64,000 bases of DNA from Gammaproteobacteria bacterium (lineage in GTDB: Bacteria; Pseudomonadota; Gammaproteobacteria; SURF-13): assembly GCA_016195665.1 (NCBI GenBank), contig JACPZD010000011.1:1-64000 (forward strand), given 5' to 3'. Below are positions 21,781 through 47,631 of this stretch, one piece after another (the stretch's first letter is position 1; every line of letters starts with the position of its first letter). The translations under genes and the position numbers were made by a program. The notes beneath the pieces are model-generated. The model ran no database searches. It had not been told where the DNA came from and saw only the letters and a list, made by a program, of their open reading frames with translations.

Positions 21781-24054
21781 TCAAGTAGCTTCGCCCAACG
21801 CCGCGGCGCGGGTGGCGGCGAGCTCGGTGAGGAAGCCCGCGGCCCAACGATAGATGTTGTGCTCCTCGACGATACGGTACATCCGTTCCATGCGCGCGCG
21901 CCGCTCCGCCGGGTCCATTTCCATACCGTAACGGATGGCATCGGCGAACTGCTCCGTGTCGTATGGGTTGATGATGAGCGCATCGGCGAGTTCGCGCGCC
22001 GCGCCTGCGAACTCCGACAAGATCAACACACCCTCGTGCGATTCCTGGGCGGCGACGTACTCTTTGGCTACCAGGTTCATGCCGTCGTGCAAAGAGCTGA
22101 CGATGCACATCGAGGCCATGCGCAAGAACGCATGGACTGTCTTGGCGTCATGGTGGGCCGCCAGGAAGTGAATGGGTTTCCAGCCGTTTGTCTGGTACTT
22201 CCAGTTGATCTCATCCGCGAGCGCTTCGAGCTGCGCAATGTGGTCGCGGTAACGGCGGAGGTGCGTGCGGCTCGGGGCTCCCAGCTCCACGAACGTGAAG
22301 CGCCCGCGATACTGCGGGTATTTTTCCAGGAACCGGCCCACGGCGCGGAAGCGCTCCGGCAAACCCTTGGTGTAGTCAATGCGGTCCACGCCCACCGCGA
22401 TGTAAGCGCCCTCGATCTTGTGCTGCGCCTTGAGCGCGGCGATCTGCTGCGCCAGATCTTCGCCCGCCGGGACCTTGCGCTCGGCCCAGTTCTGCACGCT
22501 GATGGGAAACGGCCGCACCCGCGACACGCGCCCCTTGAGCTCGACGGCGAAGTGGTCCCAGTCGAGACGCGACTCGAGCACGCGATCCACCGTGTCTAGA
22601 AAGTTGTTGCAGTACTGCTGCAGGTGAAAGCCCACCAGGTCGGCGCCGAGCATGCCGGTAAGAAGCTCCGCGCCCCACGGGCAGATGCGAAACGCCTCCG
22701 GGTTCGGCCAGGGGATGTGCCAGAACAGCCCCACGCGCAGGTCCGGGCGCACCGCCTTCAGCATCTGCGGCACCAGAGCAAGCTGATAGTCCTGCACCAG
22801 CACCACGGCCTTGCCGTCGCCGATCTCCTCGATCACGGCGTCGGCGAAGCGCTGATTCGCCTGGCGGTAATATTCCCAGTCCGCGGCGCGGAACACCGGG
22901 CGTTCATGCGCCAGGTGGCACAGCGGCCACAGCCCCTCGTTGGAGAAGCCGTAGTAGTAGCCCTGCTCCTCCTCGCGCGTGAGCCACACGCGCCGGAGCG
23001 TGTAACGGGCGTCATCCGGCGGCACTGTGAGCCGCCCCGACGCGTCCGCGGTCTCGCGGTCGGCGTCGCCTCCGCCGTGCGCGATCCACACGCCGCCGCA
23101 GGCCTGCAGCACTGGATCAAGCGAAGTGACCAGGCCGCCGGCAGGCATAATCATGTACGGCTTACCGTCGCGCAGCTGATGCATGTAGGGCTCGCGGTTG
23201 CTCACCACGATAAGCTGGCGGTCTTCGCCCAGCGCGTGGATCGCATGGGTGCGCAGCCGGTCGAGGGTCCAGACCTGCTCGGCGTGCATCGCCGCCTGCG
23301 ACAGCCTGCGCCCCGTTGATCTCGCGGCACGGAAGGAAGCGGCGAGCCGGTCGGTCTCGCTGCGCAGCAGCGCCGACGGCAAGCCGGGCGGCGGCGCCTC
23401 GGAAACGTTCTCGGTGCGCAGGCGCCGCATCCAGTCCGCCAGCTTGTGCAGCGGGCGCTCGTAGGTAAACCAGGTCATGCCGACCACGAGCATCACCGCG
23501 AGCAGCGTCACGATCAGTATCCAGAATCCGTAGCGTACCAGCCGGTCGGTGGCGCGTTCGTCTATGTATGAAACATCGTGCGCCACCACCAGTACGCCTT
23601 GCGCGGAACCGTCCTTGTCCTTGAGCGGAATTGCGAAGGCAAGGATCGGCACGCCCTGGAAGCGCACGACCTCGATCGTGTCTTTGCCCGTCTGCGCTGT
23701 CAGATCGGCCGCCGACTCGAGCCGGTCCGAAAACTCCGCCACCGCCTTGCCCGCCGCCACCAGCCGGCCATCCGGCCGGAAGACGGCGTAGCCGATCAGG
23801 CGGCTATAGCCCTCGAGCCGCGGCCGCAAGGCTTCGCGCGCCTGCGCGTCGGGCAGCGTCAGGGCCTTTTCCACCGTTCCGGAAAGTTGCTGCGCCAGCA
23901 CGTGGGCGCGGCGGTTCACATCCTCGAGGTCAATCCGGCGCTCATCGTTCGCCTGCCGCCAGGCGAACAGGCCCGTGGCAACCCCTATGGTTGCGGCAAT
24001 CAGAAGTCCCAGGCGCAGGGAGCGCGCAAGCTTCGGTCGCGATGCGGTCGTCAT
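21781..24054 (-). CDS. otsA: Trehalose-6-phosphate synthase with N-terminal membrane sensor module
   Basis: 757 residues. Residues about 12-30 and 173-195 are membrane helices flanking an extracytoplasmic segment of about 140 residues. A HAMP-like linker (ERPLHKLADWMRRLRTENVS) follows. The GT20 synthase begins near 280 (LIVVSNREPYMHQLRDG), with WIPHP-like GLFWHIPWPNPEAF, GADLVGFHLQQYCNNF, AVGVDRIDYTKGLPERF and SLHDGMNLVAKEYVAAQ. It makes trehalose-6-phosphate from UDP-glucose and glucose-6-phosphate. Ordinary OtsA is about 470 residues and soluble, so the sensor part is an addition that could tie synthesis to osmotic or envelope signals. It is last in the otsB-GH15-otsA operon. Confidence 0.93.
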   Translation of the reverse strand: MTTASRPKLARSLRLGLLIAATIGVATGLFAWRQANDERRIDLEDVNRRAHVLAQQLSGTVEKALTLPDAQAREALRPRLEGYSRLIGYAVFRPDGRLVAAGKAVAEFSDRLESAADLTAQTGKDTIEVVRFQGVPILAFAIPLKDKDGSAQGVLVVAHDVSYIDERATDRLVRYGFWILIVTLLAVMLVVGMTWFTYERPLHKLADWMRRLRTENVSEAPPPGLPSALLRSETDRLAASFRAARSTGRRLSQAAMHAEQVWTLDRLRTHAIHALGEDRQLIVVSNREPYMHQLRDGKPYMIMPAGGLVTSLDPVLQACGGVWIAHGGGDADRETADASGRLTVPPDDARYTLRRVWLTREEEQGYYYGFSNEGLWPLCHLAHERPVFRAADWEYYRQANQRFADAVIEEIGDGKAVVLVQDYQLALVPQMLKAVRPDLRVGLFWHIPWPNPEAFRICPWGAELLTGMLGADLVGFHLQQYCNNFLDTVDRVLESRLDWDHFAVELKGRVSRVRPFPISVQNWAERKVPAGEDLAQQIAALKAQHKIEGAYIAVGVDRIDYTKGLPERFRAVGRFLEKYPQYRGRFTFVELGAPSRTHLRRYRDHIAQLEALADEINWKYQTNGWKPIHFLAAHHDAKTVHAFLRMASMCIVSSLHDGMNLVAKEYVAAQESHEGVLILSEFAGAARELADALIINPYDTEQFADAIRYGMEMDPAERRARMERMYRIVEEHNIYRWAAGFLTELAATRAAALGEAT

Positions 24055-24106
24055 GATGCCTCCTGTTGTTTCTACCCTGCCTGGGTGCGGGCAGGAGCGG
24101 GTGTTG

Positions 24107-25888
24107 TCAGAAAACTTCTTCCCAGCTCTTACTCAGACGCATGGCGGAGTTGATGAGCCCCACCATGCTGTAGGTCTGCGGAAAATTCCCCCAGAGTCTG
24201 CGGCTGGCGGGGTCTATGTCTTCCGAGAGCAAGCCCAGCGAATTGCGGCAGGCGAGCAGCGTATCGAATAGCGCGCGCGCCTCCTCGCGGCGACCGAGGG
24301 CCGCGAGGGCGTCAATATACCAGAACGTGCAGACCACGAACGCGGTTTGCGGCTCGCCGAAATCGTCCTTCTGCGTGTAGCGAAAGACGAAATCGCCCCG
24401 CTTGAGGTGCTGCTCGACCGCCGCCACCGTACCGGCGAAGCGCGGATCATCCGCGGCCAGGAATCCGAGTTCATGCAAGAGCAGCAGGCTCGCATCGAGT
24501 TCTTTACCGCCAAAGCTCTCCACGAAGCTCTGTTGCTTCGCATCCCAGGCGTTCTCGCAGACCGCACGGTGAATGATGTCCGCATGCCCGCGCCAGTAGT
24601 GGGCGCGGTCGTTTAGGCCGAGGCGTATGGCGATACGCGTCAGGCGGTCGCAGGCGACCCAGCACATGACGCTGGAGAAGGTGTGAATGCGCGCGGCGTT
24701 GCGCAGTTCCCAAATGCCCGCATCGGGTTGGCTATACACCGCGCGCGCCATCTCTCCCAGCGCCTCGAGACGTCGAAACAGGCCTTCGTTGCCGGGGCGG
24801 TCGAGGCGCTCGTCGAAGAACATGTGGGTTGCGGCAAGCACAACCGCGCCATAGACGTCGTTCTGCACCTGTTGGTACGCTGCATTGCCGGTACGCACCG
24901 GTCCCATGCCCAGATAACCCGGAAGGCCGGATACGATGGATTCCTCCAGATCAGCGTGACCGCTGATGCCGTACACCGGTTGCAGACGTCCGCCCGACAG
25001 GTTCGCGGCGATGTTCACGATATAGCGCAGGTAACGCTCCATGGTGCGCGTCACACTCAGGCGATTGAGCGCCGCGACCACAAAGTAACTGTCGCGCAGC
25101 CAGCAGTAGCGATAATCCCAATTGCGACCGCTGTCCGGCGCTTCGGGTAGCGAGGTGGTCATGGCGGCGACGATGGCGCCGGTGTCATCGAAGGCGGCGA
25201 GCTTGATCGTGATCGCCGCGCGTATCACCGCATCCTGCCACTCGAACGGGATGCCGAGGAAACGCACCCAGTCTTGCCAATAGTTGCGCGTTTCCCCAAA
25301 AAACCGCTGGCCGATCTCGCCCGGGGCCTCCGGGACGGTCTCGTCCGGCCCGATCATCAGGGTGACGTCGCGCTCGAGGACGAACGGTGTCTGCTCCAGC
25401 ACCGCCGTGATCGAGGCGTCGGTGGTGAGGCGCAGCACCATCTGCGGCGAGACATAGCGGATGTGATTGCTGCCGAAGGTCAGCGTCGGGACCCCTGCGC
25501 CGTAGTCGTGGGCAGGCCCGAGGCGGATGCGGATCACCGGGCTACCGGAGAGGGGGCGTACACGGCGCACGATCATCATCGGACAGAACGTGCGCCCGAA
25601 CTGGTTGAAGCGCGGCGCGAAGTCGGTGATCTCCACCACCCCGTCCGTATGGTCGTAGAGCGTCGTCACCAGAATGGCGGTATTGCGTAGATAGCGCTGC
25701 TCGCTACGTGCGAGGTTCTGCAGCTCGATCGCGAACGCGCCGCGAACACCCTGCTCATTTCCGAGCAGGGCGCAAAAGACCGGATCGCCGTCGAAGCGCG
25801 GCATACAGGACCACACGATCCGTCCCCTCGGGTCGACGAGGGCGCTGATGCTGCAATTGCCGATCAGCCCGAGATCCAGGTTGTCCAT
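24107..25888 (-). CDS. Glycoside hydrolase family 15 (glucoamylase/trehalase type)
   Basis: A 593-residue GH15 protein with the N-terminal beta-sandwich (MDNLDLGLIGNCSISALVDP) and an (alpha/alpha)6 barrel carrying NWDYRYCWLRDSYFVVAALN and the PVYGISGHADLEESIV region. Its place between otsB and otsA suggests trehalose or a related glucan as substrate. Members of this subfamily include trehalases, but the substrate cannot be fixed from sequence. It is separated from otsB by 3 bp. Confidence 0.9.
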   Translation of the reverse strand: MDNLDLGLIGNCSISALVDPRGRIVWSCMPRFDGDPVFCALLGNEQGVRGAFAIELQNLARSEQRYLRNTAILVTTLYDHTDGVVEITDFAPRFNQFGRTFCPMMIVRRVRPLSGSPVIRIRLGPAHDYGAGVPTLTFGSNHIRYVSPQMVLRLTTDASITAVLEQTPFVLERDVTLMIGPDETVPEAPGEIGQRFFGETRNYWQDWVRFLGIPFEWQDAVIRAAITIKLAAFDDTGAIVAAMTTSLPEAPDSGRNWDYRYCWLRDSYFVVAALNRLSVTRTMERYLRYIVNIAANLSGGRLQPVYGISGHADLEESIVSGLPGYLGMGPVRTGNAAYQQVQNDVYGAVVLAATHMFFDERLDRPGNEGLFRRLEALGEMARAVYSQPDAGIWELRNAARIHTFSSVMCWVACDRLTRIAIRLGLNDRAHYWRGHADIIHRAVCENAWDAKQQSFVESFGGKELDASLLLLHELGFLAADDPRFAGTVAAVEQHLKRGDFVFRYTQKDDFGEPQTAFVVCTFWYIDALAALGRREEARALFDTLLACRNSLGLLSEDIDPASRRLWGNFPQTYSMVGLINSAMRLSKSWEEVF

Positions 25889-25891
25889 GGT

Positions 25892-26677
25892 CTAACCCCC
25901 GGGTCTCTGCGCTGCAACCCATTGTACGTAGCGGTCAAGCCAGGCCAGCACCTGCATGACATCGGCGAGCCGCCAGCGCGCCGCCGTCGGTCCTGCGCCG
26001 ACCTTGATCGAATGACCGCCCAAGCGGTTGATGACGGCGAAGCCGTCCTCGTCGGTAATATCGTCGCCCACAAAAACCGGCACATGCCCCGCGAACGGCG
26101 GCTCATGCATGAATTCGGTAATCGCGCGCCCCTTGTCCGAGTCGCGCGGGCGGATCTCATAAACCATGCTGCCCGATCCAAACATGAAGCCATCACCGAG
26201 CCACTGGAGTGTTTCGCGCGTTACCCGCGCGGCCTCGGCTTCCAGGTGCGGCGCGCCGCGATAGTGCAGCGCCAGGGTCAGGCCCTTGTCCTCAAGCAAT
26301 ATCCCGGGGTGATCGTGCGCCCACGCCAGAAGATGCGCGCGCGCCCCCCCGAGCGCTGCTTCGGCGACCACGGTGCGGTGCGCCTGCCCGTCCGCGCCAC
26401 AGCGCTCGGCGCCATGCTGACCTGCCGCCGGCAACCTCAGCGGCGCGAACAGCCGGTCGAGGTCGGCGATACGCCGCCCGCTGATGAGCGCCACAGGCGC
26501 CACGCGACGCAGCGCCTTGAGCGTCCGGATCAAACCCGGCCGCAACTCGACCTTTTCCGGCCGCTCTGCCAGATCGAGCAGTGTGCCGTCCACGTCGAGA
26601 AATACCGCCCAAGCAGTGTCGAAGGACGGCAGTGGCGACGCCTCGACCGAGGCTGGATTTTGCTCAAGCATCGTCAA
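25892..26677 (-). CDS. otsB: Trehalose-6-phosphate phosphatase OtsB
   Basis: A 261-residue HAD phosphatase. The nucleophile motif is FLDVDGTLLDLAERPEKVEL, motif II is VALISGRRIADLDRLF, and motif IV is VFVGDDITDEDGFAVINRLG. It dephosphorylates the product of OtsA to trehalose, a compatible solute. It is first gene of the minus-strand trehalose operon. Confidence 0.96.
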   Translation of the reverse strand: MTMLEQNPASVEASPLPSFDTAWAVFLDVDGTLLDLAERPEKVELRPGLIRTLKALRRVAPVALISGRRIADLDRLFAPLRLPAAGQHGAERCGADGQAHRTVVAEAALGGARAHLLAWAHDHPGILLEDKGLTLALHYRGAPHLEAEAARVTRETLQWLGDGFMFGSGSMVYEIRPRDSDKGRAITEFMHEPPFAGHVPVFVGDDITDEDGFAVINRLGGHSIKVGAGPTAARWRLADVMQVLAWLDRYVQWVAAQRPGG

Positions 26678-26954: not shown

Positions 26955-27396
26955 CTTTAGGGAAGCTCTGAATAAGTCCGTCCAGGACTTATCAGAACAA
27001 GAAAAGCAAAAACGCGGTTTTTGCTTTTCTTCATTTTTCGATTACTTGCGTAATTGAAAAATGGCGATACATCCATGTATCGCAGGAACCTTTGACTTAA
27101 TCAGAGGTTCCTTAGAAACTCTGAAAAAACCATCCATGGATTTTTCAGAGACGGCCGCTCCTGCGCTTTCTTCGCTTCGCATCCTGCTGCGCTCGAAAGA
27201 TCTGGGTGTACGTCCTGTACACCCGTTCGGCAGCTTTGCCGCCTCACCCCTGCGCCCGCGGCATTGGGGCTTCCTGCCCGGCAAAAAATAAAAAATATGA
27301 TTTTTGTTTTTCGCCCTATCTCAAACACTTACATATTTGAGATAGGGCGGTGCACCCCCTGTACCGCACGGAACCTCTGATATATCAGAGGTTCTT
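26955..27396. repeat. Array of nested hairpins in a 720-bp gene-free region
   Basis: At least seven stem-loops follow one another. They include a 15-bp stem at 26999-27031, GCGATACA/TGTATCGC at 27064-27083, GGGTGTAC/GTACACCC near 27204-27224, GCCCTATCTCAAA and its complement near 27313-27348, and the 24-bp palindrome GAACCTCTGATATATC... at 27371-27394. GGAACCTCTGATTAA-like termini at 26959, 27105 and 27371 suggest nested MITEs. Read on the minus strand, several loops expose GGA. The ORFs here (80 aa and similar) have no family resemblance and are not called. Confidence 0.6.
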
Positions 27397-27401
27397 TTAG
27401 A

Positions 27402-27839
27402 CTACTTGCAGTATATCCCCGCATCTTCCTTGTACTCCGCGAGCTTGCGCCTGAGCTTTTCCGCGCGCTTCGCCTTGTAGCCCTGCCACAACTCCTCCTC
27501 GACCTCCGCGATATGCCGCTTTGCACTGCGGCATAATTTCGCATCCTGCTTTGCACTGCGCAGCGCGGCCTTCTGTTCCGCCTCACGCCGCTGGTTCTCC
27601 TTCCGCTCAGCGGCCTCCCTGTCCTTGATATCGCGCAACCATTGCTCCTCCCCCGGCCGCAATCCGCCGGCCGACGCATCCGTAGCGGACGGCTTCACCA
27701 GCGGCCCCACCTGCCCGCAATGACTGTCGCTGTACACGACGTTGCCCTTGCCGTCCTGGCATTTATACACCTCATACACCTCGCCCGACGCCGGCCCCGC
27801 AATCCAACACAGCGCTATTACAACCAGTTTTTTTATCAT
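27402..27839 (-). CDS. Exported DUF4124-type protein
   Basis: 145 residues: a signal peptide (MIKKLVVIALCWIAGPASG) and then a DUF4124-like start VYKCQDGKGNVVYSDSHCG, in which two cysteines probably pair. A long charged coiled-coil segment follows (REAAERKENQRREAEQKAAL). Proteins of this type are common periplasmic proteins of unknown function in proteobacteria. Confidence 0.8.
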   Translation of the reverse strand: MIKKLVVIALCWIAGPASGEVYEVYKCQDGKGNVVYSDSHCGQVGPLVKPSATDASAGGLRPGEEQWLRDIKDREAAERKENQRREAEQKAALRSAKQDAKLCRSAKRHIAEVEEELWQGYKAKRAEKLRRKLAEYKEDAGIYCK

Positions 27840-47159: not shown

Positions 47160-47208
47160 CGTACACGGATGTACTAATGTCGCGGGAGGCAGGACGCCGG
47201 GAGCGACC
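47158..47208 (+). repeat. 51-bp dispersed element between pepA and holC
   Basis: The only clearly intergenic copy. Its first bases form part of the pepA stop codon, and its 3' GGGAG lies about 8 nt before the holC GTG start, where it can act as the ribosome binding site. Confidence 0.9.
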
Positions 47209-47211
47209 CGC

Positions 47212-47631
47212 GTGACGCGGATTGATTTTTATATCCTTGAGGACAATCATCTTCTCTTCACCTGCCGTCTCGCCGAGAAGATTTATACACAAGGGCAGCG
47301 CTTGTACATCCATTGCAGTTCCGAACAGCAAGCGGCGAAACTCGATGACCTGTTGTGGAGCTTCAGGCAAGGCAGCTTTATCCCTCACGCTCTCTACAAG
47401 AGTGGGCAGCAAACAGATTTGCCGATACACATCGGTCATGATGCAGAGCCCGAGGCAGGGCTCGATGTCCTTATCAACCTCTGCCAGGAAGTCCCGGCTT
47501 TTTTCAGCCAGTTCCTTCGCATCGCGGAAATCGTTGAACCGGGTGAACCCCGCAGACAGGCTGCGCGCGAACGCTTTCGATTTTATCGGGACCGCGGTTA
47601 CCCGCTAGAATCCCATACTATTTCAACATAG
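47212..47631 (+). CDS. holC: DNA polymerase III chi subunit HolC
   Basis: 139 residues starting at GTG (VTRIDFYILEDNHLLFTCRL), with SEQQAAKLDDLLWSFRQGSF and PHALYKSGQQ. Chi links SSB to the clamp loader. The gene lies in the conserved pepA-holC-valS order. Its RBS (GGGAG) comes from the 51-bp element that separates it from pepA. Confidence 0.92.
   Translation: MTRIDFYILEDNHLLFTCRLAEKIYTQGQRLYIHCSSEQQAAKLDDLLWSFRQGSFIPHALYKSGQQTDLPIHIGHDAEPEAGLDVLINLCQEVPAFFSQFLRIAEIVEPGEPRRQAARERFRFYRDRGYPLESHTIST

Follow-up and report, generated by a model that had tools for sequence, protein, structure and literature searches.

Conserved GGA-loop hairpins matching the CsrA/RsmA consensus in a family of nested, dispersed, IS5-type MITE-like elements

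A small number of sponge sRNAs are regarded as the main control on CsrA activity. As described in PMC7652899 and PMC7705225, CsrB/CsrC and RsmX/Y/Z display A(N)GGA or CAGGA(U/A/C)G loops in multiple hairpins of a single strand, a layout and consensus shared by the element family reported here. In contrast to these sRNAs, the family is dispersed, mobile-looking and present in many copies, usually with two GGA sites per copy, and shows no promoter and terminator dedicated to it at one locus, its promoter-like sites occurring at about chance level. Like IS5-family MITEs, its members are short, lack a transposase, have GGAACCTCTGA/TCAGAGCTTCC ends and 4-bp YTAR-type duplications, and occur as dispersed copies; unlike these MITEs, they have a parent-like IS without hairpins and a structurally constrained interior. 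A likeness to REP/BIME and other intergenic repeats lies in the interspersed palindromic intergenic DNA, from which the fixed five-hairpin order, the target duplications, and the GGA loops set the family apart.

Within the analysed stretch of a gammaproteobacterial contig (JACPZD010000011.1, 64,000 nucleotides, hereafter the window), GGA-exposing stem-loops follow one another on the minus strand of positions 26955-27396, as a sequence-only reading of this DNA had claimed. Both hairpins named there are present, about seven GGA loops lie on one strand within 440 nt, and the minus-strand RNA fold of the array reaches -206.7 kcal/mol vs. -124.7 +/- 5.8 kcal/mol for 100 shuffles (z = -14.2). The region had also been called gene-free, and it indeed contains no family-assigned gene; it is flanked by two minus-strand genes, one of DUF4124 type (27402-27839) and one for a trehalose-phosphatase (25892-26677). 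The GGA strand is the sense strand for both of these family-assigned neighbours, the former of which lies upstream and the latter downstream. Downstream of the array, trehalose-phosphate synthase-type, GH15-type, and trehalose-phosphatase genes are consecutive on the same strand (21781-26677). The array consists of two nested copies of a small repeat, element E and the longer element L, with the following features:

26957..26960, no strand: TTAG target-site duplication on the outer side of E (sequence; 4-bp YTAR-type rule)
26961..27111, minus: element E, a MITE-like copy of 151 bp that contains the five hairpins H1-H5 (sequence and genome matches; covariance model R1, 132 bits at 26960-27086)
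26965..26998, minus: H5 of E, GGA loop, AAGUCC-UGGAC-GGACUU within the right-end inverted repeat (fold)
26999..27031, minus: H4 of E, AAGAAAAGCAAAAACC...GTTTTTGCTTTTCTT, without GGA (fold; covariation alignment)
27032..27063, minus: H3 of E, A/T-rich, without GGA (fold; covariation alignment)
27064..27083, minus: H2 of E, GGA-loop hairpin GCGATACATGGATGTATCGC (CANGGAUG), read as GCGATACA-TGGA-TGTATCGC (sequence and fold; loop conserved in the family)
27085..27111, minus: H1 of E, palindromic left end GGAACCTCTGATTAAGTCAAAGGTTCC (sequence and fold)
27112..27115, no strand: TTAG, presumably common to E and L (sequence)
27116..27396, minus: element L, a longer copy with an extra GGA module M, split by module C (genome matches; copy comparison)
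27130..27139, minus: H5 of L, CCATGGATGG, loop UGGA (sequence and fold)
27167..27250, minus: module C, a separate dispersed repeat with the GGA hairpin 27204-27224, inside L (genome matches; copy comparison)
27204-27224, minus: hairpin GGGTGTAC-AGGAC-GTACACCC (sequence and fold)
27267..27279, minus: module M of L, hairpin GGGC-AGGAA-GCCC (sequence; copy comparison)
26972-26992, ~27130-27139, ~27153-27166, ~27179-27192 and ~27267-27279, minus: other GGA-loop hairpins (sequence and folds)
27397..27400, no strand: TTAG target duplication of L, beside the upstream gene's TAG stop codon (27402-27404) (sequence)

A gap of 1-2 bp separates the end of the minus-strand DUF4124 gene from the duplication of L, and E appears to have inserted into L's target duplication. 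The expected H2 site of L (~27348-27368) has lost its GGA. In loci L014 and L018, both parts of L (query 1-152 and 231-282) join directly, which places module C inside L; it has dispersed copies of its own elsewhere, which follow the pattern GTGAG[stem]GAA[stem]CGAACG[stem CA-NGGA-TG stem]CTGG and keep the spacer words and the GGA loop while their stems are replaced. Members of this module C family are L027, L028, L029, L032, L035, L036, L026:4085-4200, L091:8111, L081:11370, L075:10636, and L077:805.

An exact GGAACCTCTGATTAA is found at 27097-27111 on the minus strand and, with two to three mismatches, at four more sites in the array; the window contains six matches compared to 0.6 expected, a number reached by none of 100 shuffles. 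The sequence-only reading had offered nested MITEs with common GGAACCTCTGATTAA ends as its second interpretation, and the genome matches, the ends and duplications, and the covariance-model sites bear this out. The genome search that it had proposed returned many scattered copies of the modules (52 matches, window included), an outcome of the kind that it had named as refuting; the full 442 bases occur nowhere else. It is well supported that the segment consists of nested members of a dispersed, IS5-type MITE-like family in which GGA hairpins are conserved.

Copies of the family are non-coding, about 150-205 bp long, and keep the constant order H1-H2-H3-H4-(optional M)-H5 in the genome under study and in related genomes. 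H1 forms the palindromic end, H2 has a GGA loop, H3 (CATTTTTCAAACAC...) and H4 (AAAAGCAAAAACC...) follow, H5 places its GGA loop in the right-end repeat, and the optional module M contributes further GGA hairpins. IS5-type target-site duplications follow the sequence YTAR. Inverted ends are found on family copies, and 22 of the 30 copies with CTCTGA ends recognisable by a simple pattern (of 56 extracted) have identical 4-bp flanks, mostly TTAA, CTAA, and TTAG. IS5-family transposases (NF033581) with matching GGAACCTCTGA ends are encoded in other genomes (in L099, CTAA precedes the GGAACCTCTGAACAA ends); the own genome has three PF01609 matches, none with both matching ends. Derivation of a MITE interior from its parent IS by deletion is common, but not obligatory. 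We did not find element-like GGA hairpins in the non-coding IS ends of L098, L099, and L100, and the H2-H5 core also occurs with unrelated GTTGAAAAACAGCC-type ends. The interior of the family is not a deleted IS and is under structural constraint.

The covariance model R1, built from 37 copies, scores above 46 bits at ~32 non-overlapping places in the own genome, a hand count over 59 rows that include opposite-strand shadows. Among sampled genomes, it also matches 77 of 369 in the class and 51 of 398 in the phylum, 46 of the latter in another class and mostly in one family. A scan with the H4 pattern gave at least 120 stretches, 80 of which were tested; carriers among the matches listed include MAGs labelled Thiohalocapsa sp., Rudaea sp., Candidatus Muproteobacteria, and several Gammaproteobacteria. 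The element was not found in plasmids, phages, or E. coli genomes by BLAST with the low-complexity filter on, and searches of open-licence papers listed no description of the family. Clostridia matches to the H4 pattern were rejected as members, most of them covering only model positions 58-87 at ~25 bits; a few span the full model (e.g. L150 at 45 bits). H4-like hairpins of the AAAGCAAAAATCACACTTTTTGCTTT type recur in Clostridia/Firmicutes without the remaining element (L148, L155, L157, and others). A Deltaproteobacteria MAG, Gx481_bin32 (L158, L199, L170, L225), contains an apparently different dispersed multi-hairpin element with an H4-like hairpin and without GGA loops.

Conservation of structure is evident from an alignment of 37 of the 56 copies, which excludes copies with module M, a 24-nt insert, or a truncation and a few others by choice. 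In this alignment, 32 of the 49 pairs show two-sided changes (six of eight in H2) and 89.1% of the cells form pairs; on each of the five covariation measures, all 500 shuffles fall short of the alignment. Among 191 distinct copies, GGA lies in the loop of H2 in 174 of the 186 measurable copies and of H5 in 175 of 191, compared to 8 of 186 for H3 and 1 of 186 for H4. In a second set of 23 copies, mainly from the second class, the stems are different and the GGA loop is present in H2 (22/23) and H5 (20/23). Stems are swapped by compensatory changes while the H2 and H5 loops, both on the same strand, hold A(N)GGA in nearly all copies. An earlier loop table covered 64 of 83 matches, and its H5 count (63/64) overstates the conservation because GGA within the stem was accepted and L204 and L224 have no GGA in the H5 loop. 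These two loci belong to the Proteobacteria MAG SZUA-204, which retains the five-hairpin order without GGA in either the H2 or H5 loops and so counts against the CsrA reading. A survey of GGA/TCC-loop hairpins covering 464 kb of the 2.38-Mb genome led us to reject GGA loops as a general hairpin habit of this genome (41 of 313 perfect hairpins vs. 25 of 212 in one Markov simulation); CA-NGGA-TG is the sole loop class that stands out (n = 16, next loop n = 7). The GGA loops of the family are not accidental.

If the GGA strand were selected as a folded RNA, G-U intermediates should exceed A-C intermediates. Summed over four helices, the unique hairpins of 191 cores give a G-U:A-C ratio of 143:56, or 126:55 when events are counted once per family; in the anchor-free count, the register was chosen by Watson-Crick pairs only. 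The second-class set yields 20:7, with 4 of its 27 rows being opposite-strand shadows, and the BLAST-found set alone yields 14:7, which is not significant. This approximately twofold excess of G-U on the GGA strand suggests that the family folds as RNA. A first count over all pairs of a MAFFT alignment of 110 cores had given no excess (221 G-U, 203 A-C), and the well-aligned pairs of that alignment give 52:32. H1 is also rich in G-U (48:21), so the excess may reflect a strand-biased mutation process. Because of the even alignment count and the excess in H1, we consider the G-U result suggestive rather than decisive.

The conserved motif matches the published CsrA/RsmA consensus. The E. coli CsrA SELEX consensus is given as RUACARGGAUGU and the CsrB repeat as CAGGA(U/A/C)G, with an ANGGAN hexaloop contacted by RsmE (PMC7652899), and the preference of RsmA is given as CANGGAYG (PMC7705225). 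In H2 of the family, 128 of 191 copies contain CANGGAYG, and 46 of 191 match the SELEX core ACARGGAUGU exactly. A point against the CsrA reading is the length of the H2 stems (7-8 bp), as most SELEX ligands are described as having stems of 4 bp or fewer (PMC7652899). We strongly infer from this motif match that transcripts of the element would bind CsrA; that predicted CsrA binding is the reason for the loop conservation is plausible but unproven.

The genomic context of the copies shows no orientation bias relative to neighbouring genes (n = 54). Of these copies, 15 have a sense gene terminating at their left end and 14 an antisense gene terminating at their right end (within 20 bp, hand-counted, with ORFs from a simple script). 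No orientation selection is needed for this pattern, since YTAR insertion sites contain TAA/TAG stop codons. We also rejected the idea that GGA hairpins close to genes obey a rule of orientation, as the 14 sites considered lie in ORFs in antisense (n = 6) or sense (n = 2) or are intergenic (n = 6). The own genome has one copy of csrA, and the gene is present in 313 of the 369 class genomes at equal frequency in carriers (67/77) and non-carriers (246/292) of the element, tallied by hand from two lists. Of the 46 second-class carriers, 40 were tested and 39 have csrA; G127, a 95%-complete genome, has GGA-bearing elements and no csrA match, which also counts against the CsrA reading. The lack of an orientation bias and of an association with csrA is evidence against a host function.

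With moderate confidence, we interpret the family as a widespread non-autonomous element whose transcript would present two or more predicted CsrA sites. Read-through from a gene beside the element (here the DUF4124 gene on the minus strand) may transcribe the GGA strand, which would then fold into a five-hairpin RNA with two CsrA/RsmA sites, or up to five with module M, of which a CsrA dimer could bind one or bridge both. Each copy might thereby give its host transcript a docking site for CsrA, in the 3' end or the leader, and the copies might jointly act as a distributed CsrA sink, benefiting either the element or the host. A broader version of this reading is tentative and rather doubtful: that this is a new phylum-wide mobile RNA family which keeps paired high-affinity CsrA/RsmA sites by selection, and whose dozens of copies per genome would form docking sites in many transcripts and a genome-wide CsrA sink, serving the element (transcript protection or mobilisation control) or domesticated by the host. 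If true, there would be a large evolving pool of CsrA sites and a route for new genes into CsrA control, as well as a MITE family with an interior constrained as structured RNA rather than left over as DNA.

The same elements could also be plain MITE debris, spread by an IS5-type transposase without any RNA role; template switching during replication would keep or perfect the palindromes, and the GGA loops would simply be inherited. The IS5-type ends and duplications are in line with this, as are the absence of orientation bias and csrA association and an IS partner that has the ends and none of the GGA hairpins. We nevertheless consider debris somewhat unlikely, as GGA in H2 and H5 survives complete stem replacement in two classes while the H3 and H4 loops vary, and an excess of G-U over A-C is not expected from template switching. 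Recognition of the GGA hairpins by another factor, either a different RNA-binding protein or one recognising single-stranded DNA during mobilisation, would account for the strand asymmetry, which fits any single-strand ligand, and for the position of H2 and H5 next to the two ends. Yet the motif agrees with the CsrA/RsmA consensus down to its details, and both GGA hairpins lie on one strand and are not mirrored, unlike DDE transposase sites at both ends, making such a factor quite unlikely.

Finally, the sequence-only reading had proposed a CsrB/RsmZ-type sponge layout. The layout stands insofar as the loops are conserved family-wide while the stems change; the idea of a dedicated sRNA gene unique to 26955-27396 does not, and we regard it as very improbable. 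It would be favoured by the seven or so GGA loops on one strand and by a weak minus-strand promoter-like match (27324-27297), and terminator-like hairpins are present in the element. However, promoter-like matches are near chance level (2 vs. 0.9 +/- 1.0), the modules are dispersed repeats, and among Rfam covariance models run on the window only tRNAs reach the gathering score, with nothing relevant at relaxed E-values. A single CsrB-like gene was thus rejected on the dispersed copies and the missing Rfam match, and the non-autonomous element with predicted CsrA sites is the reading that we prefer.

Further GGA hairpins and nesting events were observed beyond the array. Another dispersed unit, AATGTCGCGG[..CAGGAC..]GAGCGACC preceded by a GGA hairpin, is found in the window at 47160-47215, at L076:4608 and L076:9739, and in L038 and L040-L042 near 1050-1120. 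This unit, related to module M, is probably the 51-bp element in which similar GGA hairpins had been pointed out before. At L019:860-1010, another large hairpin element apparently lies inside H1 of one copy, representing a further nesting event.
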